NCBI RefSeq assembly: GCF_011326735.1
Contig: NZ_JAANCN010000007.1
Span: 124,001 to 188,000, forward strand
Reading direction: 5' to 3'
DNA length: 64,000 nt
DNA from: Phycicoccus endophyticus
Lineage (GTDB): Bacteria > Actinomycetota > Actinomycetes > Actinomycetales > Dermatophilaceae
A program made the position numbers and the translations under genes. Of this stretch, positions 52,195 through 64,000 are shown one piece after another (within the stretch, counting starts at the first letter, position 1; each line of letters begins with the position of its first letter). Below the pieces are notes generated by a model. The model was given only the letters and a program-made list of their open reading frames with translations, ran no database searches and was not told the origin of the DNA.

Positions 52195-52734
52195 TCAGAC
52201 GGCGCGGCCGAGGTGGGCGAGCGCCTGGCGCAGCAGGACGCCGTGGCCACGCTCCATCTCCGCCTGCACGCCGGGGTCGAGGGCCTGCTCGGGGGTCAGC
52301 CAGGTCAGGTCGAGGGCGTCGTTCTGGGGCGCGCAGTCGCCGGCGACCGGGACGACGTAGGCGAGCGAGACGGCGTGCTGGCGCGGGTCGTGGAACGGGG
52401 TGACCCCGGGGGTCGGGAAGTACTCGGCGACGGTGAACGGCTGGGGGGAGGCCGGTACCCGTGGCAGGGCCACCGGGCCGAGGTCCTTCTCGATGTGCCT
52501 GAGCAGCGCGTCGCGGACCCGCTCGTGGTGGAGCACCCGGCCCGAGACGAGCTCGCGGCACACCCGTCCCTCGCCGTCGAGGCGCAGGAGCACCCCGAGG
52601 GCGCTCACCTCGCCACGGTCGTCGACGCGCACCGGGACGGCGTCGACGTAGAGGATCGGCAGCCGCCCGCGGGCGGCGTCGAGCTCCTCCCGGCTCAGCC
52701 AGGCGGGGTCGCGGTCAAGCTCGAGGGGGCTCAT
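52195..52734 (-). CDS. NUDIX-type DUF4916 protein
   Basis: The 179-residue protein reads LPILYVDAVPVRVDDRG, RELVSGRVLHHERVRDALLRHIEKDLGPVALP and TVAEYFPTPG, a pattern conserved in actinobacterial DUF4916/NUDIX-fold proteins. A canonical GX5EX7REUXEEXGU box is not complete, so hydrolysis is uncertain. It starts within the last 20 bp of the ECF S-component gene, so it is the last gene of the B12-uptake operon by position, although a functional link is not evident. Confidence 0.78.
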   Translation of the reverse strand: MSPLELDRDPAWLSREELDAARGRLPILYVDAVPVRVDDRGEVSALGVLLRLDGEGRVCRELVSGRVLHHERVRDALLRHIEKDLGPVALPRVPASPQPFTVAEYFPTPGVTPFHDPRQHAVSLAYVVPVAGDCAPQNDALDLTWLTPEQALDPGVQAEMERGHGVLLRQALAHLGRAV

Positions 52735-53611
52735 CCCCCGATTGTGCCAAGGGCTGCAGCTCGCGTCCGCCCTGGCCCGCCGCGCACGTCGGGCTCGAGG
52801 CGGCCTCGAAGCGCACGGGGACGTCGAAGGCCGCGCGCCGGGCGGCCCGGCGCAGGGCGCCGAGGACCGGGCGGGCGGTGAGCGCGACGAGGACGGCGGT
52901 GGTCGCCGCACGGGTGAGGTCCCACCCGAGGCTCGTCGCGAGGCTGAACAGGAGGAACCGGTGGAGGTTCTCGGCGACGGGGGCACCGGGCAGGACGGAG
53001 AGCCCACCCCCGGATCCGGTCGAGAACGGCCAGAACGAGAGGTTGAGCAGGATGCCGTAGGCGAGCCCGGCCACCGCGCCGTACCCCGCCAGGAGGCCGA
53101 CCTCGCGCCGGCCCCGGGCCCGGGGGAGGACCCCGGCGCCCCAGCCCACCCAGGCCGCGGCGAGCATCTGGAAGGGCAGCCACGGTCCGACCCCGCCGGT
53201 GACCAGTGCGGAGGCGAAGAGCGTCACCGCGCCCTGGACGAAGCCGAACCCCGGCCCGAAGACCCGCCCCCCGAGGACGAGGAGGAAGAAGACCGTCTCC
53301 AGGCCGGCGGTCCCGGCCCCCAGCGGGCGCAGGGCGGCACCCACCGCGGCGAGCACGCCGAGCATGGCCACCGCCTTGACGTCCATCCCGCCGTCGGCGA
53401 TCTCGGCGAGGACGACCGCGAGCAGCAGCGGCAGGACGACGGCGAGGACGAGCGGGGCGTCGTCGCCGTGTGCCAGCCCGGAGGTGGGCGCGAGGAGCAG
53501 CGGCCAGCCGAAGGCGACGACCCCGGCCGCGCTGACGAGCGCGACGGCGAGGGCGGAGCGGTGCCCGAGCAGCACCGCGCGCGCGGGCCGGGCCCCGGCG
53601 GGGGCGCTCAC
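52715..53611 (-). CDS. ECF transporter S component (putative cobalamin-specific)
   Basis: The 298-residue membrane protein has about six to eight spans, including LLLAVVLAEIADGGMDVKAVAMLGVLAAVGAALRP in two parts and GGRVFGPGFGFVQGAVTLFASAL, the pattern of the ECF substrate-binding S subunits. It binds the vitamin and toggles in the membrane when driven by the A and T subunits. GTG 53611 overlaps the ATPase stop. The cobalamin assignment rests on the riboswitch and neighbours. Confidence 0.82.
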   Translation of the reverse strand: MSAPAGARPARAVLLGHRSALAVALVSAAGVVAFGWPLLLAPTSGLAHGDDAPLVLAVVLPLLLAVVLAEIADGGMDVKAVAMLGVLAAVGAALRPLGAGTAGLETVFFLLVLGGRVFGPGFGFVQGAVTLFASALVTGGVGPWLPFQMLAAAWVGWGAGVLPRARGRREVGLLAGYGAVAGLAYGILLNLSFWPFSTGSGGGLSVLPGAPVAENLHRFLLFSLATSLGWDLTRAATTAVLVALTARPVLGALRRAARRAAFDVPVRFEAASSPTCAAGQGGRELQPLAQSGDEPPRA

Positions 53612-55263
53612 CGCTCCTCCCCGTCCACGGCCGTGCGGACCTCGTCCACGGTGAGCCACGGCCCCGGGCGGAGGACCTTGGCGACCTGCGGCGCGAGCGT
53701 GGGGGAGGCGAGGACGACCTGGGCGGTCGGGCCCTCCGCCACGACCTCACCCGCCGCGAGGAGGACGACGCGGTCGGCGCACTCGGCGACGAACTCGACG
53801 TCGTGGGTGGCGACGAGGAGCGCGCGCCCGTCGTCGGCGAGCCCCTGCAGTGTGCTCGCCAGCGCCGCCTTGGCGACCGGGTCCAGCCCCCGGGTCGGCT
53901 CGTCGAGCAGGAGCACCGGCGGGTCGGCGGTCAGCTGGACGGCGAGGACGAGGGCGAGCTTCTGGCCCTCGGACAGGTCGCGCGGGTGACGGTCGGCCGG
54001 CACGTCCGGGGCCAGCCGGGCGAGCAGGCGCGCACAGGTCCCCGGCGGGGCTGCGCTCTCCCGGTCGGCCTGGGCGCACTCGCCGCCCACCGTGTCGAGG
54101 TAGAGCAGGTCGGCGGCGCTCTGCGGGACCAGGCCGACCCGCTCGCGGCGGCGGTCCGGCGGCAGCCCGGCAGGGTTGACCTCGCCGCCCTCGCGGGCCA
54201 GGACGCGCACCCGGCCGGCGGTGGGCGCGGTGCTCCCCTGGAGGGCCCACAGCAGGGAGGACTTGCCCGACCCGTTGCGCCCCATGAGCCCGGTCACCTC
54301 GCCGGCGCGCAGGTCGAGGTCGACGCCGGCGACGGCGAGGACCTCTCCCGGGTGCCGGACGACCAGCCCCCGTGCGCGCACCACGGGCTCCCGTCGCCCC
54401 GCCGCGGCGGCCCGCGGGGACACCGGGCTCGGGGACCGGCCGCGCAGCCCGGCGCGCAGGTCGGCGGCGGCCCGCCGGGCGTCGCGGACCGAGAGCGGCA
54501 GCGGCTGCCACCCGGCCCACCGGCCGAGCTCGACGACCGGGGAGGTCACCTCGCTCGTGGCCATCATCGCCGCCGGCTCCCCGGCGCTCACCGTCCCGTC
54601 GGGGGCCACGTGCACGACCCGGTCGGCGTGGTGGAGCACGCGCTCGACCCGGTGCTCGGCGAGGACGACGGTGACCGCGAGGTCGTGGACGAGCCGGGTG
54701 ACCGTCGCGAGCACGTCCTCGGCCCCGACGGGGTCCAGCGCCGAGGTCGGCTCGTCGAGGAGGATGACCCGGGGGTGCGCCGTGAGGACCGAGCCGATGG
54801 CCACCCGCTGCTGCTGGCCGCCGGACAGCTCGCGCAGCGGGACGTCACGCAGCTCGGGGATGCCGAGGAGGTCGAGGGTCTCCTCGACCCGGGTGCGCAT
54901 CGTGGCCGCCGACAGCCCGAGCTGCTCCATGCCGTAGGCGAGCTCCTCCTCGACGGTGTCGGTGACGAAGCCGGCGAGCGGGTCCTGCCCGACGACCCCA
55001 ACGAGGTCGGCGAGGTCGCGCGGACGGTGCTCGCGGGTGTCGCGCCCGTGGACGAGCACCCGACCGCGCAGGGTCCCGCCGGTGAAGTGCGGTACCCGGC
55101 CGCACATCGCCCCGAGCAGGGTCGACTTGCCCGAGCCGGTCCGCCCGACGACGAGCGCGAGCTCGCCCTCCTCCACGCTGAGGTCGACCGATCGCAGGAC
55201 GGGCCGGTCGGCGCCGGCGAGGGTGACCGAGACCGACTCCAGGACGACGGCGGGCTCATCCAC
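53608..55263 (-). CDS. ECF transporter fused double ATPase (A-A')
   Basis: The 551-residue protein contains two ABC ATPase domains. The first has Walker A VGRTGSGKST at 39-48, signature ELSGGQQQR and Walker B LLDEPTSALD; the second has MGRNGSGKSS, DLSEGQKLAL and LLDEPTRGLD. Together they form the EcfA-EcfA' engine in one chain. GTG 55263 is chosen because GGAGGT is 7 bp upstream; it overlaps the T-component stop by 8 bp. Confidence 0.92.
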   Translation of the reverse strand: MDEPAVVLESVSVTLAGADRPVLRSVDLSVEEGELALVVGRTGSGKSTLLGAMCGRVPHFTGGTLRGRVLVHGRDTREHRPRDLADLVGVVGQDPLAGFVTDTVEEELAYGMEQLGLSAATMRTRVEETLDLLGIPELRDVPLRELSGGQQQRVAIGSVLTAHPRVILLDEPTSALDPVGAEDVLATVTRLVHDLAVTVVLAEHRVERVLHHADRVVHVAPDGTVSAGEPAAMMATSEVTSPVVELGRWAGWQPLPLSVRDARRAAADLRAGLRGRSPSPVSPRAAAAGRREPVVRARGLVVRHPGEVLAVAGVDLDLRAGEVTGLMGRNGSGKSSLLWALQGSTAPTAGRVRVLAREGGEVNPAGLPPDRRRERVGLVPQSAADLLYLDTVGGECAQADRESAAPPGTCARLLARLAPDVPADRHPRDLSEGQKLALVLAVQLTADPPVLLLDEPTRGLDPVAKAALASTLQGLADDGRALLVATHDVEFVAECADRVVLLAAGEVVAEGPTAQVVLASPTLAPQVAKVLRPGPWLTVDEVRTAVDGEER

Positions 55264-56389
55264 GGGCACGCACCTCCCGGGCACCGCGCGGCGCGACCCG
55301 CGCGGCCGGGCGGGGCGGTGGCGGGGTGAGCAGCGCCGGCAGGGCGGCGACGAGGAGGCCCGCCACCCCGAGCACCGGCAGCGCCGGCGGGGCGAGCGGC
55401 GACAGCGGCAGGGACAGCGCGTCCGGGTCGACCCGCCCGACCACGGTGAGCGCCGCGGCGGCGACGACACCGGAGCCGAGCGTCAGCCACTCCGGCCCCC
55501 GCCACGGGTCTCGACGGTAGACCGAGGTGTGCACACGGCGCCCGCCGAGCCAGAGCCCGGCCCCACACAGCAGGAGCCCCGTGAGCAGCGCCGGCGTGCC
55601 GAGGAGCGCCGGCGTGGAGGCGTCGAGCACGCCGTAGAGCCCGACCGCGACGAGCAGCAGGCCGGTGAGCGTCGCGGCCGAGGCGGCGCGGCGGCCGGCC
55701 GGGCCGTCGGGCTCGGTGCGTCCGTAGCCCCGCGAGTCCATGGCCGCGGCGAGCAGGAGGGAGCGCTCGAGGGTGTCCTCGAGGACCGGCAGGGCCACCG
55801 CCGGGAGCGCCCGCAGCCCCCGGGCGCCGTCGCCGCGCAGCTGGCGCGCGCGCAGCACCCGCTGCACCGACTCGGCGAGCTGGGGAGCCACCGAGACCGA
55901 GACGACGACCGCGGCGCCGACCTCGTGGAGCGCGGCCGGGAGGCTGCGCAGGAGGCGTTTGGGGTTGGCGAGCGCGTTGGCCGCGCCGATGCACGCGATG
56001 ACGACGGCGAGCCGCAGGCCGGTGACGGCTGCGGCGAGCAGCCCCTCGAGGCGGACGTCGCCGCCGAGCTCGACGCCGGCGGCCCAGGTCGGCAGCGAGA
56101 CCCGGGGCAGGGGCAGCACGACGGTCCTGCCGGTCTTGACGCCGACGACGACGTGCAGGAGCACCCGGACGAGGACGACCGCCACACCGAGCCACAGGTA
56201 GAGCCGGAAGGCCCGGGCCCAGGGCGAGGACCCGCGGCGTGCGGCGACGACGAGGCCCGCGACCGCCAGGGCGAGCAGGAGCAGCAGGGGGTTGGTGCCC
56301 GCGCTCGCCGCGACGGCGAGGCCGACCGCCCACCCCCACCAGGCGGCGGGGTGGACGGCGCGGGGCACGTCGAGGTCCAGGCGTCCCAT
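55256..56389 (-). CDS. ECF transporter transmembrane T component
   Basis: The 377-residue protein has several hydrophobic spans and, in the central cytoplasmic coupling region, RARQLRGDGARG and the EcfT hallmark AMDSRGYG (Ala-x-x-Arg-Gly family motifs) that docks onto the ATPases. It links S and A subunits. ATG 56389 lies 2 bp past the DUF4430 gene stop. Confidence 0.88.
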   Translation of the reverse strand: MGRLDLDVPRAVHPAAWWGWAVGLAVAASAGTNPLLLLLALAVAGLVVAARRGSSPWARAFRLYLWLGVAVVLVRVLLHVVVGVKTGRTVVLPLPRVSLPTWAAGVELGGDVRLEGLLAAAVTGLRLAVVIACIGAANALANPKRLLRSLPAALHEVGAAVVVSVSVAPQLAESVQRVLRARQLRGDGARGLRALPAVALPVLEDTLERSLLLAAAMDSRGYGRTEPDGPAGRRAASAATLTGLLLVAVGLYGVLDASTPALLGTPALLTGLLLCGAGLWLGGRRVHTSVYRRDPWRGPEWLTLGSGVVAAAALTVVGRVDPDALSLPLSPLAPPALPVLGVAGLLVAALPALLTPPPPRPAARVAPRGAREVRARG

Positions 56390-56391
56390 CC

Positions 56392-57009
56392 TCAGGCCCG
56401 CCGCCTGCGGACCGCCCACGCCGCGGCGGCGACGAGGACGACGAGGGCGCTCCCGGTGATCAGCGAGGTCGTGCTCCCCGGGGCCGAGGATGTCCCGGCC
56501 GCCGTGCTCCCGGCCGGTCCGTCACCGGAGCCCGCGGCTCGGTCCCGGCCGCCGGCGAGCACGTCGGCCACCGCGACCCGGGGTCGCTCCCCGGCGCCGT
56601 AGCGGACGCCGATGACGCTCCCGGCCGGTGGGTCGAAGGTGGCCACTCCCGTGTCGCTGTAGGTCCACTGCTCTCCCGCGGCGGCGTGGAAGAAGCCCCA
56701 GTAGGCGTCGGCGGGCGGCGTGCGGACACAGCCGGCCGAGGCCGGGACACCGTCGACACGGCACAGGAACCCGGGCTGGGTCTCGACCTGGACCACGCTC
56801 GCCACCGCCTCGAGTGCCTCCAGGGCCGAGGCCGGGTCGCCGGGCGCGCACCGGGTGGTGACGGCGCTCCCGGTGTCGACGACGACCGAGACGCCGGAGC
56901 TGCCCGCGCAGGCCGCGGCCGTCGCCGGCGCCGCGGTGACGAGCAGCCCGGCGCCGGCCAGCACTCCCGTCGCCACGGCACCGGCGGCGCGCCGCAGCCC
57001 GCCGCCCAT
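56392..57009 (-). CDS. secreted DUF4430 protein, transcobalamin beta-domain-like
   Basis: The 205-residue protein has a signal peptide (about 1-33, ending ATAAA), a mature domain with YWGFFHAAAGEQWTYSDTG and PPAGSVIGVRYG, which matches DUF4430, and a C-terminal transmembrane helix (about 182-200) plus RRRRA, so it is anchored with its domain outside the cell. DUF4430 corresponds to the C-terminal cobalamin-contacting beta domain of transcobalamin and intrinsic factor. Its ATG overlaps the preceding TGA by one base. Confidence 0.85.
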   Translation of the reverse strand: MGGGLRRAAGAVATGVLAGAGLLVTAAPATAAACAGSSGVSVVVDTGSAVTTRCAPGDPASALEALEAVASVVQVETQPGFLCRVDGVPASAGCVRTPPADAYWGFFHAAAGEQWTYSDTGVATFDPPAGSVIGVRYGAGERPRVAVADVLAGGRDRAAGSGDGPAGSTAAGTSSAPGSTTSLITGSALVVLVAAAAWAVRRRRA

Positions 57010-58268
57010 CAGCGCTCGCCGCTCCGGCGCCTGGCCAGCCAGCCGCCGAGGACGGCGAGCAGGGCGAGCGCGACGCCGACCGCGACCCAGACCGGGAGCG
57101 CGGAGGAGCCCGAGCCGTCCGCGCCGTCCTCGTCGGCCTGCGCCGCCGGCGACGCCGAGGCTGCCGCCGTGCACGACGACGCGGGCGCGGCCCGCGAGGC
57201 GTCCTGGGCACTCACCGAGAGCAGGGAGCCACCCGCCAGCGCGAGCGTGGCCTGCGGGGTCGCCCGCAGGTCGGAGTCGGCCGGCTCGGTGCTCGAGCGC
57301 TCGGCGGCACTGTGCGCGACGGCTCCGACCAGTGCCTCGGGCGCCGAGCACCCGTAGCGCAGCCCGAGGAGGAAGGCGCGTCCGGCGTCGGCGGGCGAGG
57401 TGCGCCCGCCGGCGGTGAAGGCCTGCACCGCGACCGCGGTCGTGTTGGCGTTCGGGTCGCCGTCGGCAGCGGAGAGGCCACCGTCGGCGCCCTGGGCGTC
57501 CTCGAGGTGGTCCAGGGCGTCCTGCGCGGCGTCCGTGGCGCCGAGCGCGAGCAGCGCCTGGGCGGCGAAGGCCGTCGCGTCCGGGTCGCTCGCGCACCGC
57601 CGGCCCCCCGGCGTGGCCCGGAAGCCGCCGTCGGGGCACTGCTGGTCCAGGAGGAAGGCCCGCGCCGGGTCGTCGACCGGCCGCCCGGCGCGCTCGAGGG
57701 CGAGCAGGGCGAGCGACTGCCCGATGGTGTTGGAGTAGTCGCACTGCTTCTGTCCGCAGCCCGTGGACGGCAGGTCGGAGAAGCGCCCGGGGTCGACGGC
57801 GCCCTCGGTCGCCTCGAGGCGGGCCACGAGGTCGCTGCCCCCGACCGACCGCGGGTCGCCGCCGTGGGCCACGACCGTGAGCAGCGCCTTGGCGGTCGAC
57901 CCGGCGTACGTCGTGTCCGGGCCGGCGCCGACGTAGTCGCCGAGGTGGGACTCCAGGAAGGCCATCGCCCGGTCGGCCTCGTCGCCGGCCGTGTGCGCCC
58001 CGTCGAGGGCGAGGACGGCGTCGAGGGTGTTGCCGCCGTCGAGGTAGCCGTCGGTGGAGAGCGTGCCGTCGGTGTCCGGGTAGACGTAGTGGTGCCCGTA
58101 CTCGGTGAGGGTCCGGGCGACGAAGGCCGCGGCGTCCTGGGCGGCGACGTCCGGGGAGACGTCGGCGGCCGCGCCGGCGGGTGCGGAGGCCACGAGCAGC
58201 GCGAGCCCCGCGGTGAGGACGGTGGCGAGCCGGGGGAGCACCCGGCCGCGTGGGGGGATGGGGGACAT
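57009..58268 (-). CDS. secreted prenyltransferase-repeat protein, transcobalamin alpha-domain-like
   Basis: The 419-residue protein has a signal peptide (about 1-34, ASAPAGAAA), an alpha-alpha barrel of repeated helical hairpins (YAGSTAKALLTVVAHGG, SNTIGQSLALLALERAG, DPDATAFAAQALLALG, NANTTAVAVQAFTAGG), and a C-terminal transmembrane helix plus RRRSGER. The fold is that of prenyltransferases and of the N-terminal domain of transcobalamin. No terpenoid-cyclase catalytic DxDD is seen. ATG 58268 follows AGGAAGG and a cobalamin riboswitch, so B12 capture is inferred. Confidence 0.85.
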   Translation of the reverse strand: MSPIPPRGRVLPRLATVLTAGLALLVASAPAGAAADVSPDVAAQDAAAFVARTLTEYGHHYVYPDTDGTLSTDGYLDGGNTLDAVLALDGAHTAGDEADRAMAFLESHLGDYVGAGPDTTYAGSTAKALLTVVAHGGDPRSVGGSDLVARLEATEGAVDPGRFSDLPSTGCGQKQCDYSNTIGQSLALLALERAGRPVDDPARAFLLDQQCPDGGFRATPGGRRCASDPDATAFAAQALLALGATDAAQDALDHLEDAQGADGGLSAADGDPNANTTAVAVQAFTAGGRTSPADAGRAFLLGLRYGCSAPEALVGAVAHSAAERSSTEPADSDLRATPQATLALAGGSLLSVSAQDASRAAPASSCTAAASASPAAQADEDGADGSGSSALPVWVAVGVALALLAVLGGWLARRRSGER

Positions 58269-58369
58269 GGGGCCTTCCTGAGCGGTCGGGACGAGCGCCC
58301 GAACCGCCGGAGCGAGAGCCCCGACCTCCCGGGCTCCGTCCCGCACTCCTCGACGGTGGTAGTGGAGCC

Positions 58370-58490
58370 GCTCGCACCCTTCGGGCATTCCGACTCGCCA
58401 CGACGCGGCGTGGCCTACGGCTGCGGGACAGTGCCGGACTCGGACCGGCTTCCCCCGGCAGATGCGTGTGGGTGCCGCCCCGGGGGGCGA
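58370..58490 (-). promoter_or_regulatory. cobalamin riboswitch
   Basis: On the minus strand, GGGGGAAGCCGG is followed by TCCGAGTCCGGCACTG, TCCCGCAGCCGTA (the B12 box) and GAGTCGGAATGCCC, the conserved core blocks of the cobalamin aptamer in the right order. Downstream, GAGCCC...GGGCTC (about 58315-58340) can form a hairpin just ahead of the ribosome site, a likely expression platform. The exact ends are approximate. Adenosylcobalamin binding normally shuts such genes off. Confidence 0.88.
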
Positions 58491-58539
58491 CGAGGGCACT
58501 CTACCCCGGCCGCGACGGCGGCGGGCTAGGGTGCCGCCC

Positions 58540-59292
58540 GTGGCCCCGCTCCCCGCCCGCGTCCTCCTCCTCGGGGGCAGTGCCGAGGCCCGCGCGCTCG
58601 CGGACGCGCTCGTGGCCCGCGGCCTCGAGGTCACCTCCTCGCTGGCCGGCCGGGTCTCCCGCCCCCGCCTGCCCGCCGGCCGGGTCCGGGTCGGTGGGTT
58701 CGGCGGCGTGGAGGGCCTGCGGGCGGCGCTGCGGGCCGAGGGCTGGACGCACGTCGTCGACGCGACCCACCCGTTCGCGGCGACGATGACGGCGCACGCT
58801 GCCCGGGCCACCGCGGCCGAGGGTGTCCCGCTGCTCCGGCTGGCCCGCCCGGGCTGGTCCGGACACCCCGACGCGGGGGCGTGGCGCTGGGTCGAGGACC
58901 ACGACGAGGCGTGCGTCGTCGCCGGGCGGCTCGGGCGCCGCCCGGTCCTCACGACGGGTCGGCAGACGCTGCACCACTACCGCGGCTGGGCCGAGCGGCC
59001 GGTCCTCGTCCGGCTCGTCGAGCCGCCGGTCGACCCGCTGCCCGGGGCCTGGACGCTCGTGCTCGCCCGCGGCCCCTACGACGTGGACGGTGAGACCGAC
59101 CTCCTGCGCGGGCACCGGGCCGACGTCCTGCTCACCAAGGACTCCGGAGGCGCCCACACGGCGGCCAAGCTCGACGCCGCCCGCGTGCTGGGCGTCCCGG
59201 TCGTCGTCGTGCGCCGGCCGTCGGTGCCGGACGGGGTCGCGGCGGTCGACGACGTCGCCGGCGCGGTGCGCTGGGTCACCGGGGAGGTCTGA
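58540..59292 (+). CDS. cobK: precorrin-6A reductase
   Basis: The 250-residue protein reduces precorrin-6A to dihydro-precorrin-6A with NADPH in the aerobic B12 route. LLLGGSAEARALADAL at the start is the CobK nucleotide loop, then DATHPFAATMTAHA and VLLTKDSGGAHTAAKL are family blocks. GTG 58540 (or 58531) starts about 50 bp from the riboswitch of the divergent operon. Its end overlaps the end of cobD by 17 bp on the other strand. Confidence 0.92.
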   Translation: MAPLPARVLLLGGSAEARALADALVARGLEVTSSLAGRVSRPRLPAGRVRVGGFGGVEGLRAALRAEGWTHVVDATHPFAATMTAHAARATAAEGVPLLRLARPGWSGHPDAGAWRWVEDHDEACVVAGRLGRRPVLTTGRQTLHHYRGWAERPVLVRLVEPPVDPLPGAWTLVLARGPYDVDGETDLLRGHRADVLLTKDSGGAHTAAKLDAARVLGVPVVVVRRPSVPDGVAAVDDVAGAVRWVTGEV

Positions 59293-60220
59293 CGGCGACC
59301 CGCAGCCCGACCCCGACCGCCAGCGCGCCCCACGTCACCCGGCGCAGCAGGGCGGCCGCGCGCTGGACGTCCCGCGGTGTCGGGGCGGGCCCGTCACCGA
59401 GCACCCCGCGGTCCTCGACGACGTCCCCGTAGGTGTTCGTGCCGCCGAGCCGGAGGCCCAGTGAGGTCGCCCAGGCCGCCTCCACGGGGCCGGCGTTGGG
59501 GCTCGGGTGCGCTCGCCCGTCGCGCCGGGCGGCCCGCAGCACCTCGCGGCCGGCGCCGGTCCGCAGCTGCGTCTCGAGCGCGGTGAGGGCGACGGTGACC
59601 CGGGCCGGGGCCCAGGCCGCGAGGTCGTCGAGGCGGGCGGCGGCCCAGCCGTAGCGCTCGTAGCGCGCCGAGTGGTGCCCGACCATCGCGTCGAGGGTGT
59701 TGACGGCCCGGTGGCCGAGGAGACCGGGCAGCCCCGCGACCGCGCCCCACAGCAGCGGCGCGACGACGGCGTCGACGGTGTTCTCCGCGAGGCTCTCCAC
59801 GCAGGCGCGGGCGAGCCCGTCGACCTCGAGGGCGCTCGGGTCGCGACCGACGAGCGAGCGCACCCGGCGACGGGCCGCGGGCAGGTCCCCGTCCTGGGCG
59901 GCGGTGGCCACCGCGGCGGCCTCGCGCTCCAGGGAGCGGCCCCCGAGCACGGTCCACGTCACGGCGGCCGCGAGGACGGTGCGCGGCGCCGGGGGGAGGC
60001 GGGAGCCCGCGACGCCGGCGAGGACGGGACCGGTGACGAGGAGAGCCTCGGCGAGCAGCCCCCGGGAGCGCGTCGGGGCGTAGAGCGCACGCTCGACGCG
60101 CAGCGCGAGGGCCCCGAAGCCGGCCACCGGGTGCAACCGGTGGGGGTCGCCGAGCATCCGGTCGAGGACCACCCCGGCGACGAGCCCGGCCGCCACCGGC
60201 TCCGGGCGGGGGAGCCTCAT
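59276..60220 (-). CDS. cobD: adenosylcobinamide-phosphate synthase (CbiB type)
   Basis: The 314-residue membrane protein joins aminopropanol (phosphate) to adenosylcobyric acid. Family motifs: AGVVLDRMLGDPHRLHPVAGFG near the N-terminus (in two parts), ESLAENTVDAVVAPLLWG, and NTLDAMVGHHSARYERYGWAAARLDD (seen in segments), all typical. It overlaps cobU by four bases. The symbol follows P. denitrificans usage; cbiB is the Salmonella name. Confidence 0.94.
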   Translation of the reverse strand: MRLPRPEPVAAGLVAGVVLDRMLGDPHRLHPVAGFGALALRVERALYAPTRSRGLLAEALLVTGPVLAGVAGSRLPPAPRTVLAAAVTWTVLGGRSLEREAAAVATAAQDGDLPAARRRVRSLVGRDPSALEVDGLARACVESLAENTVDAVVAPLLWGAVAGLPGLLGHRAVNTLDAMVGHHSARYERYGWAAARLDDLAAWAPARVTVALTALETQLRTGAGREVLRAARRDGRAHPSPNAGPVEAAWATSLGLRLGGTNTYGDVVEDRGVLGDGPAPTPRDVQRAAALLRRVTWGALAVGVGLRVAVRPPR

Positions 60221-60747
60221 CCGCCGGGCAGGGTGAGGACGCGGCCCGCCACCACGAGCAGCACCCGGTCGGCGGCGCCGGCGAGCTGCTGGTTCAGCCG
60301 GCCCAGCTCGTCGGCGAACACGCGCCCGGAGTGGTGGGCCGGGACGACACCCCAGCCGACCTCGTTCGTCACGACGACGAGGTCGTGCGGGCAGGCGGCC
60401 CAGGCGGCGACGACGTCCGCGGTGCGCTCGTGCAGCCCGGGCTCCCAGCCCGCGCGCGGGGTGTCCCACGCGCCGAGGCCGTCGAGGACGGCGGTGAGCC
60501 AGGTGCCCGCGCAGTCCACGAGCGCCGGCCCGCGCAGACGGCGCAGGGCGTCGGCGAGGTCGGCGGTCTCGAGCGTGGACCAGTCGCGTGGGCGGCGGGC
60601 CCGGTGGGCCGCCACGCGCGCCTGCCAGTCGGGGTCGTCCGCGCGTGGTCCGGTGGCGACGTAGGTGACCCCGGGTCGGCCGGCGAGCAGGTCCTCGGCG
60701 ACCCGTGACTTTCCCGAACGCACCCCGCCGGTGACGAGCGTCCTCAC
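60217..60747 (-). CDS. cobU: adenosylcobinamide kinase / guanylyltransferase
   Basis: The 176-residue enzyme phosphorylates adenosylcobinamide and transfers GMP to it. The P-loop is GGVRSGKSR at residues 7-15, and VVVTNEVGWGVVP is the second family block. GTG 60747 overlaps the cobS stop and its TGA overlaps the cobD ATG, so the late B12 genes are translated in a chain. Called cobP in P. denitrificans. Confidence 0.95.
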   Translation of the reverse strand: MRTLVTGGVRSGKSRVAEDLLAGRPGVTYVATGPRADDPDWQARVAAHRARRPRDWSTLETADLADALRRLRGPALVDCAGTWLTAVLDGLGAWDTPRAGWEPGLHERTADVVAAWAACPHDLVVVTNEVGWGVVPAHHSGRVFADELGRLNQQLAGAADRVLLVVAGRVLTLPGG

Positions 60748-61529
60748 GGGCGGGCTCCCGCCGCCAGGGCGAGGAGCAGCACGGTCGTGGCGGTCTCGAC
60801 GGCCGCGCCGACGGTGTCGCCGGTGACGCCCGCGACGGCACGCACGACGCGGCGCACGACCCAGGCCACCGCCGCGGCGCCCGCGAGCACGCCGAGCGGG
60901 CCGGCGAGCAGACCGACGCCGGCGAGCCACCCGAGGGCCGCGAGGGCGAGTGCGGCGAGGGCCACCCAGCCGGCCGCGACGGCGCGGGGCACCGTGGCGG
61001 CGACGAGGGCCCCGAGCCCGTCCGGGCGGGCCGGTGGCAGGCCGCGCACGCACACCGCCGGACAGGCGACCCGGCCGAGGGCGACGGCGGCGCCGGCGAG
61101 CAGGCTGCCCGCGACGCTGCCGGTGAGGACTCCGAGCGAGGACGCCTGGGCGAGCAGGACGAGCACGAGCGCGACCGCTCCCATCGGCCCGACGTCGCCC
61201 GCGCGCATCACCGCGAGCGCCCGCTCCCGGTCCCATCCGGCTCCGAGGCCGTCGACGGTGTCGGCCAGCCCGTCGAGGTGCATCGCCCGGGTCGCGAGCG
61301 CACCGGCACCGACGGCGAGCGCACCGGCGGCCGGTGCGGGCAGACCGAGCAGATGGCCAGTCAGGCCGCTCGCGGCGACCGCCGCCCCGACCGGCAGGGC
61401 GGCGACCGGGGCGAGGGCCATCGCCCAGCCGGCCCGCCCGGGCGTCACCTCGCCGACGTCCCCGCTCGGCAGCACGGTGAGCGTGCCGAGGGCCAGGCGC
61501 AGCCCGGCGGCGGCCTCGGACGGCCTCAT
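60744..61529 (-). CDS. cobS: adenosylcobinamide-GDP ribazoletransferase (cobalamin synthase)
   Basis: The 261-residue membrane enzyme joins GDP-cobinamide to alpha-ribazole. AMHLDGLADTVDGLGAGWDRERAL (in two parts) and MRAGDVGPMGAVALVLVLL are the conserved acidic and hydrophobic blocks. It has six or so spans. It overlaps cobA by four bases. Called cobV in P. denitrificans. Confidence 0.94.
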   Translation of the reverse strand: MRPSEAAAGLRLALGTLTVLPSGDVGEVTPGRAGWAMALAPVAALPVGAAVAASGLTGHLLGLPAPAAGALAVGAGALATRAMHLDGLADTVDGLGAGWDRERALAVMRAGDVGPMGAVALVLVLLAQASSLGVLTGSVAGSLLAGAAVALGRVACPAVCVRGLPPARPDGLGALVAATVPRAVAAGWVALAALALAALGWLAGVGLLAGPLGVLAGAAAVAWVVRRVVRAVAGVTGDTVGAAVETATTVLLLALAAGARP

Positions 61530-62545
61530 GGCCGCTGCTCGAGGGCGTCGACGACGGCGCCGACCACCGTGACGGCGGGCGGGCCGACCCCCGCGGCCAG
61601 CGCGGCCTCGGCGAGCCCCGCGAGGGTGGCGCGGACGGTCCGCTGGCCGGGCAGCGACCCCTCGGCGACGCAGGCCGCGGGCGTGTCCGGGGACATCCCG
61701 TGGCGGACGAGCTCGGCGGCGGTCTCGCCGAGGGTCGCGTTGCCCATGAGGACGACGAGGGTGAGCCCGCTGCGGGCCAGCGCACCCCAGTCGACGGCGC
61801 TGCGCGGGTCGCCCGGGCCGACGTGCCCGGAGACCACGACGAAACCCTGGGTGAGCGCACGGTGGGTGACCGGGATGCCGGCGAGGGCGGGCGCGGCGAC
61901 GGCCGAGGTGACGCCGGGGACGACCGTGACCGGGATGCCGTGACGCACGCAGGCGTTCCACTCCTCGCCGCCGCGCCCGAAGACGAAGGAGTCTCCGCCC
62001 TTGAGCCGGACGACGTCCAGCCCGCGCGCCGCCCGGTCCACGAGCAGGGCGTCGATGGCCTCCTGCGGGGTGAACGCGCCGCGCGGGATCTTCCCGACGT
62101 GCACGACCTCGGCGTCCGGCCGGGCCCGCTCGAGGGCGGCGAGCGGCGCCAGCCGGTCGCAGACGAGCACGTCGGCCCGCTCGACGGCCGCCAGGCCCGC
62201 CACGGTGAGCAGCCCGGGGTCGCCGGGGCCGCCGCCGACGAGGGTGACCCGGCCGACGCGGGCGGGCGGCTCGGTGCTCTCGGGGGTCCCGTCGGCCACC
62301 GGGCCGTGCGGGTCACGGACGACGACGTCCGCACCGTCGGCGTCGGCCTGCGGGTCCAGGGTGAGCAGGCCGCGCGCGGCGAGGTCGCGCAGCTGGGCGT
62401 GCACGGCGTCGCTCGTCGTCGCGTCCGGGCGCACCACCGGGCGCACCCCCTGCGCGGCGAGCGCGTGGACGGTCTCCGCGACGCGGGGGCCGGGGCGGGT
62501 GACGAGCACGGACGCGCCCGCCGGGACGGGGAGGACGAGGCTCAT
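61526..62545 (-). CDS. cobA: uroporphyrinogen-III C-methyltransferase with N-terminal extension
   Basis: The methylase domain (about 95-335) has VTLVGGGPGDPGLLT, VRLKGGDSFVFGRGGEE and GFVVVSGHV, the family's SAM and substrate motifs, and makes precorrin-2. Residues 1-90 add a domain (VLVTRPGPRVAETVHALAAQG) that resembles uroporphyrinogen-III synthase-like or degraded Rossmann sequence rather than the CysG dehydrogenase; it is too short to be a full second enzyme. It overlaps cobB-cobC by four bases. Confidence 0.9.
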   Translation of the reverse strand: MSLVLPVPAGASVLVTRPGPRVAETVHALAAQGVRPVVRPDATTSDAVHAQLRDLAARGLLTLDPQADADGADVVVRDPHGPVADGTPESTEPPARVGRVTLVGGGPGDPGLLTVAGLAAVERADVLVCDRLAPLAALERARPDAEVVHVGKIPRGAFTPQEAIDALLVDRAARGLDVVRLKGGDSFVFGRGGEEWNACVRHGIPVTVVPGVTSAVAAPALAGIPVTHRALTQGFVVVSGHVGPGDPRSAVDWGALARSGLTLVVLMGNATLGETAAELVRHGMSPDTPAACVAEGSLPGQRTVRATLAGLAEAALAAGVGPPAVTVVGAVVDALEQRP

Positions 62546-64000
62546 GCCGACCGCTCCGTCCGCCGGGCCAGGACGCGCCCGAGCTCGCGCAGCAGACCGT
62601 CGCTCGTCAGCGGGTCGCGCACGGCGATGCGCACCCAGGCGGGCCCCAGGCCGGGGAAGGTGTCCCCCCGGCGCACCGCGTAGCCACGCTCACGCAGGGC
62701 CTCGCGCACCCCGACGCCGACCTCGACCAGGACGAAGCTCGTCGAGGACGGCACCGGGCGCAGCCCGAGGGCGGTCAGCCCGGTCACGAGGTGCCGGCGC
62801 CAGGCGGCGGTCTCCTCGGCCGCGCGGGCCGCCTCCGCCCGGGCGAGCGGGGTGGCCGTCTCGACCATGACCCGCGCCGCGAGGGTGCCGACCGACCACG
62901 GCGGCTGCTGCCGCGCCAGCCGGGTGAGCAGCGCCGGGTCGCCGAGGACGTAGCCCGCGCGCAGCCCGGCGAGCGCCCACGTCTTGGTCAGGGACCGCAC
63001 GAGCAGCAGGCCGGCGAGGTCGGGGCCGGCGAGGCTGGCGTCGTCGCCGGGGTGGGTGTCGACGAAGGCCTCGTCGACGACGAGGACCCGGCCCGGGGCA
63101 CGCAGGGCCTCGAGCGTGGCGCGCGGGTGGAGGACGCCCGTGGGGTTCGTCGGGTTGCCGACGACGACGAGGTCGGCGTCGGCGGGGACCGCCTGCGGGT
63201 CGAGGGCGAAGTCGTCCTCGGGCGTCAGGAGCACGTGCTCGGGCACCGTGCCCGCGAGGCGCAGTGCCGCCTCGGGCTCGGTGAACTGGGGGTGGACGAC
63301 GACGGCGCGGCGCGGGTGCAGGGCACGGGCGAGGAGGGTGAACGCCTCGGCGGCCCCTGCGGTGGGGAGGACGGCGGCCTCCGGGACCTCGTGCCGGCGG
63401 GCGAGGGCGGTGCGCGCCGCGGCGGTGCTCGGGTAGGCGGCGAGGCCGGCCACCTCGGCACGCAGGTGGTCGGCGAGCCACGGCGGGGGTGCCTCGCCGC
63501 GGACGTTGACGGCGAGGTCGACCAGGCCCGGGGCGACCTCGGCGTCGCCGTGGTGGCGCCACGGGTCCGCCGGCGGAGCGGGGGCGGGCCGGACCGCGGG
63601 GGGTGCCGGCGTCGCCGGCGCGGGCAGCGCGCCGCGTGTGGGAGCGGCGTGCACGGCGTCGGCGAAGCGGCGGGCCAGCTGCGGGTGACCCGCCCAGTGG
63701 ACGTGCAGGTAGGAGGCGTGCACCGTCGGCGTGCCGGTGCCCGCCGGGTCGAGCGACCAGCCCTCCGGCTCGCCGTCGAGCAGCCACCCGGGACGCTCGC
63801 CGTGCCCGGGGAGGGTGCGGGTGCGGTGGAACTCGTGGCCGCGCACCACGGCCCCGGCCGGCGCGAGGAGGGTGTCGTGGTCGGTTCGGGCGGTCCGGTA
63901 GCGCAGCGTGAGCCGCGGGTGCATCGCCGCCGTGGTGGGCACCTGCGCGACCATCCGGTGCCCGTCGACGCTCTCGGCGAGGTAGAGCAGCCCGGCGCAC
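62542..64000 (-). CDS. CobB-CobC fusion (partial): cobyrinate a,c-diamide synthase end plus threonine-phosphate decarboxylase-like aminotransferase
   Basis: The frame is open to the window edge. Its first visible residues, CAGLLYLAESVDG, are the catalytic-cysteine block of the CobB glutamine amidotransferase domain, followed by LTLRYRTA, RGHEFHRT and ASYLHVHWAG, the CobB C-terminal pattern. A Pro/Ala-rich linker leads to a PLP-dependent CobC/HisC-like domain (VVVGNPTNPTGVLHP, and SLTKTWALAGLRAGY with the PLP lysine). CobC makes aminopropanol phosphate. The CobB N-terminal ATPase half lies outside the window. Confidence 0.88.
   Translation of the reverse strand, partial: CAGLLYLAESVDGHRMVAQVPTTAAMHPRLTLRYRTARTDHDTLLAPAGAVVRGHEFHRTRTLPGHGERPGWLLDGEPEGWSLDPAGTGTPTVHASYLHVHWAGHPQLARRFADAVHAAPTRGALPAPATPAPPAVRPAPAPPADPWRHHGDAEVAPGLVDLAVNVRGEAPPPWLADHLRAEVAGLAAYPSTAAARTALARRHEVPEAAVLPTAGAAEAFTLLARALHPRRAVVVHPQFTEPEAALRLAGTVPEHVLLTPEDDFALDPQAVPADADLVVVGNPTNPTGVLHPRATLEALRAPGRVLVVDEAFVDTHPGDDASLAGPDLAGLLLVRSLTKTWALAGLRAGYVLGDPALLTRLARQQPPWSVGTLAARVMVETATPLARAEAARAAEETAAWRRHLVTGLTALGLRPVPSSTSFVLVEVGVGVREALRERGYAVRRGDTFPGLGPAWVRIAVRDPLTSDGLLRELGRVLARRTERSA

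Follow-up and report, generated by a model that had tools for sequence, protein, structure and literature searches.

The window examined here, a stretch of 64,000 nucleotides from Phycicoccus endophyticus (Actinomycetota; Dermatophilaceae; contig NZ_JAANCN010000007.1, positions 124,001 to 188,000), carries on its minus strand, at 58455-52195, a Cobalamin riboswitch followed by six closely packed genes. The first two encode a secreted alpha/alpha-toroid protein (AA) and a secreted beta-grasp protein (DUF), and behind them lie the genes of an importer of the energy-coupling factor (ECF) type, with its components T, A-A' and S. This operon is likely to encode a split, membrane-tethered, transcobalamin-like capture module that serves an ECF corrinoid importer under riboswitch control. 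Its parts are as follows:

58383..58455, minus strand: Cobalamin riboswitch aptamer (RF00174; cmscan, 35.0 bits), 114 nt 5' of AA
57009..58268, minus strand: AA, predicted secreted alpha/alpha-toroid (alpha6/alpha6 barrel) protein, 419 aa (SCO2321_fam, AlphaFold, Foldseek, hydropathy)
56392..57009, minus strand: DUF, predicted secreted beta-grasp protein with the fold of the transcobalamin beta domain, 205 aa (AlphaFold, Foldseek)
55256..56389, minus strand: EcfT, CbiQ-type transmembrane component (PF02361, 9.5e-8, 32.4 bits against a cut-off of 25)
53608..55269, minus strand: fused EcfA-EcfA' ATPase with two ABC domains (PF00005, 9.5e-51, two stretches; GTG start assumed)
52715..53611, minus strand: ECF S component (PF12822, 5.1e-7, 30.3 bits against a cut-off of 30.7; GTG start assumed)
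52195..52734, minus strand: NUDIX-type DUF4916 protein, end of the apparent operon (PF16262, 5e-85)

The stop codon of AA and the start codon of DUF share one base (TGATG), and EcfT begins 2 bases past the end of DUF. With the assumed starts, the remaining genes overlap their upstream neighbours by 14 (EcfA-A'), 4 (S) and 20 bases (NUDIX/DUF4916); the start codons of EcfA-A' and S are chosen GTG codons, and the coordinates of both are therefore approximate. Both secreted proteins begin with a signal-like segment and carry near the C-terminus a hydrophobic stretch with arginines behind it; the Kyte-Doolittle peaks lie at residues 390-408 of 419 in AA and 182-200 of 205 in DUF. With EcfT, the paired ATPase domains and S encoded together, the operon has the make-up of an ECF-type ABC importer. 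The ATPase also matches the NCBIfam ECF_ATPase models (3.5e-77 and 5.7e-76, both below cut-off). The S component falls 0.4 bits short of the PF12822 cut-off, yet it is conserved, being 57-83% identical to 15 relatives in an alignment; its profile found no match among PDB sequences.

The riboswitch exceeds the gathering score of RF00174 (35.0 against 31.5 bits, E 3.4e-5) and is one of four matches to that model in the window's genome. B12 riboswitches generally act by repression in the presence of B12, and the same sign is presumed here. A further model, R1, trained on 16 riboswitches adjoining this operon type, scores it at 91.4 bits; the window supplied one of these 16 sequences, and R1 scores on them mean little because the model was trained on them. 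Rfam's own model gives at least one Cobalamin match (E <= 0.01) in 38 of 40 genomes picked for an AA-type match. A first-pass annotation of the window had described a cobalamin riboswitch leading an operon of two secreted, C-terminally anchored proteins that overlap by one base and precede ECF T, fused A-A' and S genes. That observation is confirmed, the NUDIX/DUF4916 gene at the operon's end being absent from its reasoning, and the accompanying interpretation, a transcobalamin-like pair feeding the importer, is partly supported.

Of the two secreted proteins, DUF is the one whose predicted fold singles out known cobalamin carriers. Its AlphaFold model (predicted local distance difference test, pLDDT, 90.6; predicted template modelling score, pTM, 0.86) was built from an alignment of 45 sequences, the window protein and GTDB relatives. 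Against the PDB, every one of Foldseek ranks 1-18 went to a cobalamin carrier (transcobalamin, intrinsic factor or haptocorrin; 16 chains) or to 3u7z (two chains), with probabilities of 0.92-1.00 and query-length template modelling (TM) scores of up to 0.56, and rank 19 was unrelated (probability 0.44). The order of elements in the model, strand-strand-helix-strands, is consistent with the transcobalamin beta domain, which is a beta-grasp fold with a hairpin inserted after the helix. The label DUF4430, given earlier to this protein, does not hold. The corresponding Pfam model (PF14478) has no match in the DUF protein, in the beta domains of loci L106, L107, L158 and L092, in the fused L112 or in L185, and none in the window's genome and 18 relatives; two control genomes do match it. 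The full Pfam collection likewise gave no match to DUF, and the likeness consists of the predicted fold and a match to NCBIfam SCO2322_fam below its cut-off (7.9e-7, 29.6 bits; cut-off 85). PDB entry 3u7z (RUMGNA_00854 of Ruminococcus gnavus) was deposited as a putative metal-binding protein and ranks here among transcobalamin beta domains; judged from this model comparison, it may be a corrinoid binder.

The AlphaFold model of AA (pLDDT 90.9, pTM 0.90; alignment of 49 sequences, the window protein and GTDB relatives) shows the alpha6/alpha6 barrel that characterises the transcobalamin family. In Foldseek, transcobalamin appears at rank 18 (E 2.8e-5, probability 1.00, query TM 0.55), behind terpene cyclases at ranks 1-16 and a glucuronyl hydrolase at rank 17. 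AA is thus predicted to be of the right fold class, but because terpene cyclases rank ahead, the fold by itself does not point to transcobalamin. By sequence, AA matches NCBIfam SCO2321_fam (2.1e-30, 105.9 bits; cut-off 300 not reached), and in Pfam a prenyltransferase-toroid match lies below cut-off (E 0.067) amid other chance-level matches. Transcobalamin was not among the matches of a PDB sequence search with AA, so that no relation to its alpha domain was found at that level. DXDD is the catalytic motif of class II terpene cyclases; in the AA stretch aligned to DVDDTA of squalene-hopene cyclase, which is SDPDATA in the window protein and SDxDATA as a consensus, the last Asp is missing. A reading of AA as purely a terpene cyclase was not adopted: the fold permits it, but the partner DUF, the riboswitch and the fusions described below point elsewhere. 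A supposed pairing of transcobalamin VDTAAMA and NVYSTPLA with bacterial DPDATAMA and NANSTGLA was also set aside, neither pair having aligned in the profile comparison, and no claim is made on it. The comparison of the single proteins with transcobalamin divides: the beta half of the earlier proposal stands by predicted fold, with carriers and 3u7z at ranks 1-18, and the alpha half is a generic barrel with no sequence relation found. Taken by their predicted structures, AA and DUF may be regarded as the two halves of a transcobalamin-like fold.

The gene neighbourhood is conserved far outside the window. The best 80 of 176 confirmed AA matches in GTDB genomes define 80 loci that hold 110 AA genes; by title these loci are actinobacterial (Phycicoccus, Nostocoides, Knoellia, Janibacter, Micromonospora, Streptomyces, Saccharothrix, Dactylosporangium and others, genera which we take to belong to that phylum). 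In this set a riboswitch lies upstream of 94 of the 103 AA genes with more than 1.2 kb of upstream sequence, and 101 of 118 riboswitch matches precede an AA gene. Of the 93 AA genes with sufficient downstream sequence, 71 are followed by or fused to DUF, and 56 are followed by EcfT. Leaving out the seven loci from genomes used to train R1 gives 87/96 for the riboswitch, 64/86 for DUF and 49/86 for EcfT. The refuting pattern named beforehand, in which the pair commonly occurs without B12 riboswitches or ECF genes, was not seen: among the 80 AA genes with a DUF partner or fusion, the riboswitch is upstream of 77, and EcfT is directly downstream of 60 and somewhere in the locus for 72, five of the eight genes that miss it sitting on loci shorter than 15 kb. 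All of AA, DUF, T, A and S are present in 51 of the 63 loci of at least 15 kb.

In an even, unselected draw of 296 genomes of the class, 102 have AA, 110 have DUF and 82 have the two together (Fisher p 1.3e-29, with related species not independent; the AA and DUF draws are taken as identical, their genome identifiers agreeing). A DUF gene lies within 2.5 kb downstream on the same strand at 83 of 114 AA places in this sample, and the two domains are fused in several genomes, which bears out the earlier view of AA and DUF as partners. Among 20 AA loci beyond the window, 17 have an adjacent DUF, the exceptions being L066, L069 and the second L065 copy, and 17 have the riboswitch upstream, the exceptions being L073, L074 and again the second L065 copy. 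One genome with AA, G419, has no T, A or S match in the stretch examined. A tblastn search of plasmids hit two Embleya records, in both cases where no feature is annotated; the one inspected more closely is unannotated throughout the stretch. The co-occurrence of AA, DUF, riboswitch and ECF genes is far beyond chance, and the gene set that recurs across actinobacteria is, on these genomic grounds, very probably a B12 uptake system.

The relation of the operon to the synthesis of B12 and the need for it was examined in a family comparison of 17 genomes with an AA match (carriers) and 11 non-carriers, with CbiC (PF02570) as a marker of de novo synthesis and MetH as PF02965; two other non-carriers of the family, G046 and G092, stood outside the CbiC search. 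MetH is present in 17/17 carriers and 10/11 non-carriers. Within the genus, all eight relatives with AA are without CbiC; two of the three relatives without AA have it, the third (G002, a 710-contig draft) has neither, and the window's genome has both. Two families of possible alternative importers were searched for: FecCD, the family of BtuC, and ABC_membrane_2, the family of BacA-type importers. Among 13 carriers tested for FecCD, none was found in G006, G007, G011 and G029, and ABC_membrane_2 was found in none of the seven carriers tested, these four included. Since G006, G007, G011 and G029 lack CbiC, FecCD and ABC_membrane_2 and have kept MetH, the operon is, among the importer types searched for, the best candidate for B12 import in them. 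In G006 and G011 the single RF00174 match (E <= 0.01) stands in front of this operon. The tie to B12 import suggested by the first-pass annotation is thereby strengthened, through the riboswitch, the linkage to one ECF type and the presence of the operon in genomes that apparently need imported B12. For comparison, BtuFCD homologues are reported in over 90% of B12-uptaking organisms (PMC2667541).

Synthesis of B12 and this import system apparently coexist in the window's species, in contrast to the eight operon-bearing congeners examined, which are without CbiC. Its genome also has a separate CbiM-CbiQ cobalt system beside a riboswitch of its own on contig C12. Genes of the CobK, CbiB, CobU, CobS, CobA, CobC, CobN and CbiC types are distributed over window positions 58462-63954 and contig C12:1-16000 (L096).

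Several variants of the module were found among relatives. In G006, of the same genus, the orthologous pair is one frame of 722 residues without a stop, with AA before DUF as in transcobalamin. Compared with G007 (91% identical in the aligned toroid stretch), this fusion is missing the anchor of AA and some of the signal peptide of DUF; its topology is uncertain because a hydrophobic remnant (residues 447-465) remains between the domains. Six more fused frames, some of them containing two toroid stretches, occur in the 80 loci in the reverse order, DUF-AA. Single-chain forms are thus confined to some relatives, the window having two genes. In nine loci checked (L106-L110, L126, L134, L158 and L176), AA and DUF end within 6 residues past the domain and have no C-terminal anchor, and in five of these (L107, L108, L126, L158 and L176) the ECF genes are preceded by two pairs, each behind a riboswitch, of which the anchorless one comes first. 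A crude test found no C-terminal hydrophobic segment in 52/110 AA and 37/99 DUF frames, frames cut by the end of a locus counting as lacking. The earlier suggestion that the anchored proteins replace a soluble binding protein needs changing in this light: an anchored pair does occur, as in the window, and many relatives have anchorless, apparently soluble pairs, several of them beside an anchored one. They could serve as secreted carriers of the vitamin. Pairs of this kind, each behind a riboswitch of its own and neighbouring a second pair and ECF genes, lie at L107:9004-10386, L108:9004-10386, L158:9007-10364, L176:9001-10405 and L075:7895-9453.

Beta domains also occur without the toroid. 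Twelve genomes have a strong DUF match and no AA, and five of these were examined (L183-L187). In L183-L186 a beta protein with a lipobox is followed by the same ECF type, with metH in the locus; metH abuts in L184, L185 and L186 and lies about 2.3 kb off in L183. The fifth locus (L187:3-1524, genome G655) has two tandem beta-domain genes at the contig start and an ATPase match; in the 9 kb examined there was no match to the toroid, to T or S, or to metH, so that the domain seems to be put to a different use there. An AA locus without a riboswitch match, L073, also abuts metH. In L183:5608-8625, L184:6037-9060 and L186:5342-8743 (all minus strand), EcfT, both ATPase domains and S share one frame of 1006-1134 aa; judged from the reading frames, this T/A/A'/S fusion near metH is apparently a whole ECF transporter in one polypeptide.

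The following mechanism is proposed. The anchored beta-grasp half, DUF, would grip the corrinoid first, and the anchored alpha6/alpha6 barrel half, AA, would then close over it; together they would capture the vitamin outside the membrane and either raise its local concentration at S or pass the load to S, and the ECF transporter (T, A-A' and S) would carry cobalamin or a closely related corrinoid inwards. The ligand itself, the assembly of the halves on it and its delivery to S are what we infer from the locus, and the AA/DUF sandwich around cobalamin is drawn by analogy with the animal carriers. The model for the assembly step is human transcobalamin: its alpha and beta domains, expressed apart, co-elute only when cyanocobalamin (CNCbl) is present (PMC5599065), so that a natural split is physically reasonable. 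In rat transcobalamin, cobalamin is reported to bind to the beta domain before the alpha domain closes (PMC11107200). To judge from the beta-only lipoproteins, the beta half may be the core, to which the toroid would add affinity or selectivity. A bolder proposal, for and against which we see the case as evenly balanced, is that actinobacteria have evolved an ECF transporter with a dedicated, ligand-assembled receptor whose tethered halves meet only around the corrinoid and present their load to S. To our knowledge, such a mode of substrate capture is not known for ECF importers. For ECF transporters, substrate binding has been assigned to the S component (PMC5997447). Related lineages show other forms of the module: secreted halves without anchors, fused receptors, and a beta-only lipoprotein close to metH, there with some or all of the ECF parts joined.

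A number of observations weigh against the proposal of a transcobalamin-like capture module for B12 import. The Foldseek E-values of DUF are modest (4.8e-3 to 6.4e-2, none <= 0.001), and its sequence profiles found no cobalamin carrier in the PDB, the matches being antibody chains and three unrelated proteins with poor E-values. The best folds for AA are squalene-hopene and drimenyl-diphosphate cyclases, the barrel being generic, and its best PDB sequence matches are terpene cyclases as well; an hhalign comparison with transcobalamin residues 172-296 gave a probability of 0.2% over 14 columns, in a weak test with three sequences and a fragment. The partners are not obligatory, as 20 of the 102 AA genomes of the class sample have no DUF match at threshold (five of them, G152, G234, G255, G308 and G371, show a weak one beside AA) and 28 of the 110 DUF genomes have no AA match. 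No R1 riboswitch match was obtained in the beta-only loci examined. The deficit of CbiC among carriers in the family comparison (5/17 against 8/11) reaches a two-sided p of only 0.051. The window's own genome contains CbiC and CobN, for which reason its organism probably makes B12 and need not import it. Finally, the rank of the operon as best import candidate in the four genomes named above was reached with BtuM and CbrT-like S components not searched for.

Other readings of the operon have to be set against this evidence. The cargo may be something other than complete cobalamin, namely an incomplete corrinoid (cobinamide) or a lower-ligand precursor (dimethylbenzimidazole or alpha-ribazole) taken up for salvage. 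The CobU-, CobS- and CbiB-like late assembly genes beside the window's operon are what salvage needs, and ECF-CbrT carries both cobalamin and cobinamide (PMC5997447); metH in the beta-only loci, however, needs the finished cofactor, and a small lower-ligand base would not obviously require a two-part transcobalamin-like grip. On these grounds a different cargo is considered unlikely. A slightly less probable account is that DUF alone is the receptor and AA does otherwise, for example as an enzyme or a wall-binding scaffold that is merely co-regulated. This would agree with the beta-only lipoprotein and ECF genes in four of the five loci examined, with a toroid nearest to terpene cyclases in fold and sequence, and with the ranking of the cobalamin-beta interface as the most favourable in rat transcobalamin (PMC11107200). 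It is harder to reconcile with the fusion of AA and DUF in both orders, with their place together behind one riboswitch, with the anchorless AA-DUF pairs, or with the fusion of the same two domain types in other bacteria (Burroughs et al., 2007; PMC1796856).

Import of cobalt or another metal under B12 control is very improbable. Its attraction is that EcfT is CbiQ-like and that B12 riboswitches also precede cobalt uptake genes, as they do on contig C12, but it is this separate, riboswitch-linked CbiM-CbiQ system in the same genome that makes the present one an unlikely cobalt importer. Furthermore, S matches PF12822 (just below cut-off) and not CbiM, and metal ECF systems are not known to have transcobalamin-like parts. 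Cobalt transport by the operon was accordingly rejected as a candidate.

The capture module proposed for B12 has several known counterparts. Animal transcobalamin, intrinsic factor and haptocorrin combine an alpha6/alpha6 barrel with a beta-grasp domain, the beta fold being shared by DUF. These carriers hold both domains in one chain, whereas the window has two separate bacterial proteins, each membrane-anchored; in addition, its toroid half is nearer to terpene cyclases in fold and sequence, and its ligand is a proposed one. With two chains and no sequence relation in the alpha domain, AA and DUF fall outside the definition of the transcobalamin family, but by analogy they may well work like it. 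The B12 lipoprotein of Bacteroides is an outer-membrane protein with an unrelated fold, and it works with a TonB-dependent system. It resembles the present pair as a surface protein that captures B12 ahead of a transporter (PMC6143338). ECF-CbrT of Lactobacillus delbrueckii is likewise an ECF transporter, for cobalamin and cobinamide, and unlike the window's system its description, in the text available, has no extracellular capture proteins (PMC5997447).

The closest precedent comes from comparative genomics. In the available text of Burroughs et al. (2007), transcobalamin-like SLBB proteins are proposed to be B12 scavengers, and animals are proposed to have acquired transcobalamin from such bacteria (PMC1796856). 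The proteins are either secreted or attached to the wall, often carry a toroid in the same chain, and are encoded in operons with a CbiO-like ATPase and CbiQ (PMC1796856). Operons with a second extracellular SLBB protein were noted as well, and the clade was found to be wide in low-GC Gram-positives and planctomycetes and rarer in euryarchaea (PMC1796856). The question left by the first-pass annotation, whether the arrangement has already been described, can thus be answered in principle with yes, and the window's system is a variant of the principle published in 2007 (PMC1796856). In that same text, a split toroid/SLBB pair, a B12 riboswitch, an S component and an actinobacterial member of the clade were not seen (PMC1796856). 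Our own literature search, to which subscription journals were mostly and preprints wholly external, found no description of the split, anchored actinobacterial form. New here are an actinobacterial family whose tested members escape Pfam, separately anchored halves, the B12 riboswitch and the linked S component, as well as the range of split, fused, anchorless and beta-only forms linked to lost B12 synthesis and metH. The Streptomyces locus-tag families SCO2321_fam and SCO2322_fam are named without a function, and the window proteins lie below both cut-offs. A member of SCO2321_fam (L080, 590 bits) is followed by a weak DUF match, T, A and S, in the same order as in the window.

Extracellular capture of B12 in Gram-positive bacteria is poorly known, and four carriers are without any FecCD-type permease. 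If the proposal is true, it would provide a candidate B12 uptake system for about one third of the sampled class (toroid gene in 102 of 296 genomes), and ECF transport would gain an extracellular receptor. Through the bacterial series of split, fused and beta-only forms, it would also open the proposed origin of animal transcobalamin in bacteria, and the mechanism by which its domains close, to direct testing.

Some minor observations concern the other riboswitches and the end of the operon. In G007, G008, G001 and G106 (L179, L180, L181 and L182), the other riboswitch examined precedes ribonucleotide reductase genes, presumably for a B12-independent enzyme. For S. lividans, two cobalamin riboswitches are listed in the available text, one before cbiM and one before cobD-cobQ-cobN (PMC8079986). 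The NUDIX/DUF4916 gene, which overlaps S in the window, is found downstream of S in all eight operon-bearing relatives of the same genus.

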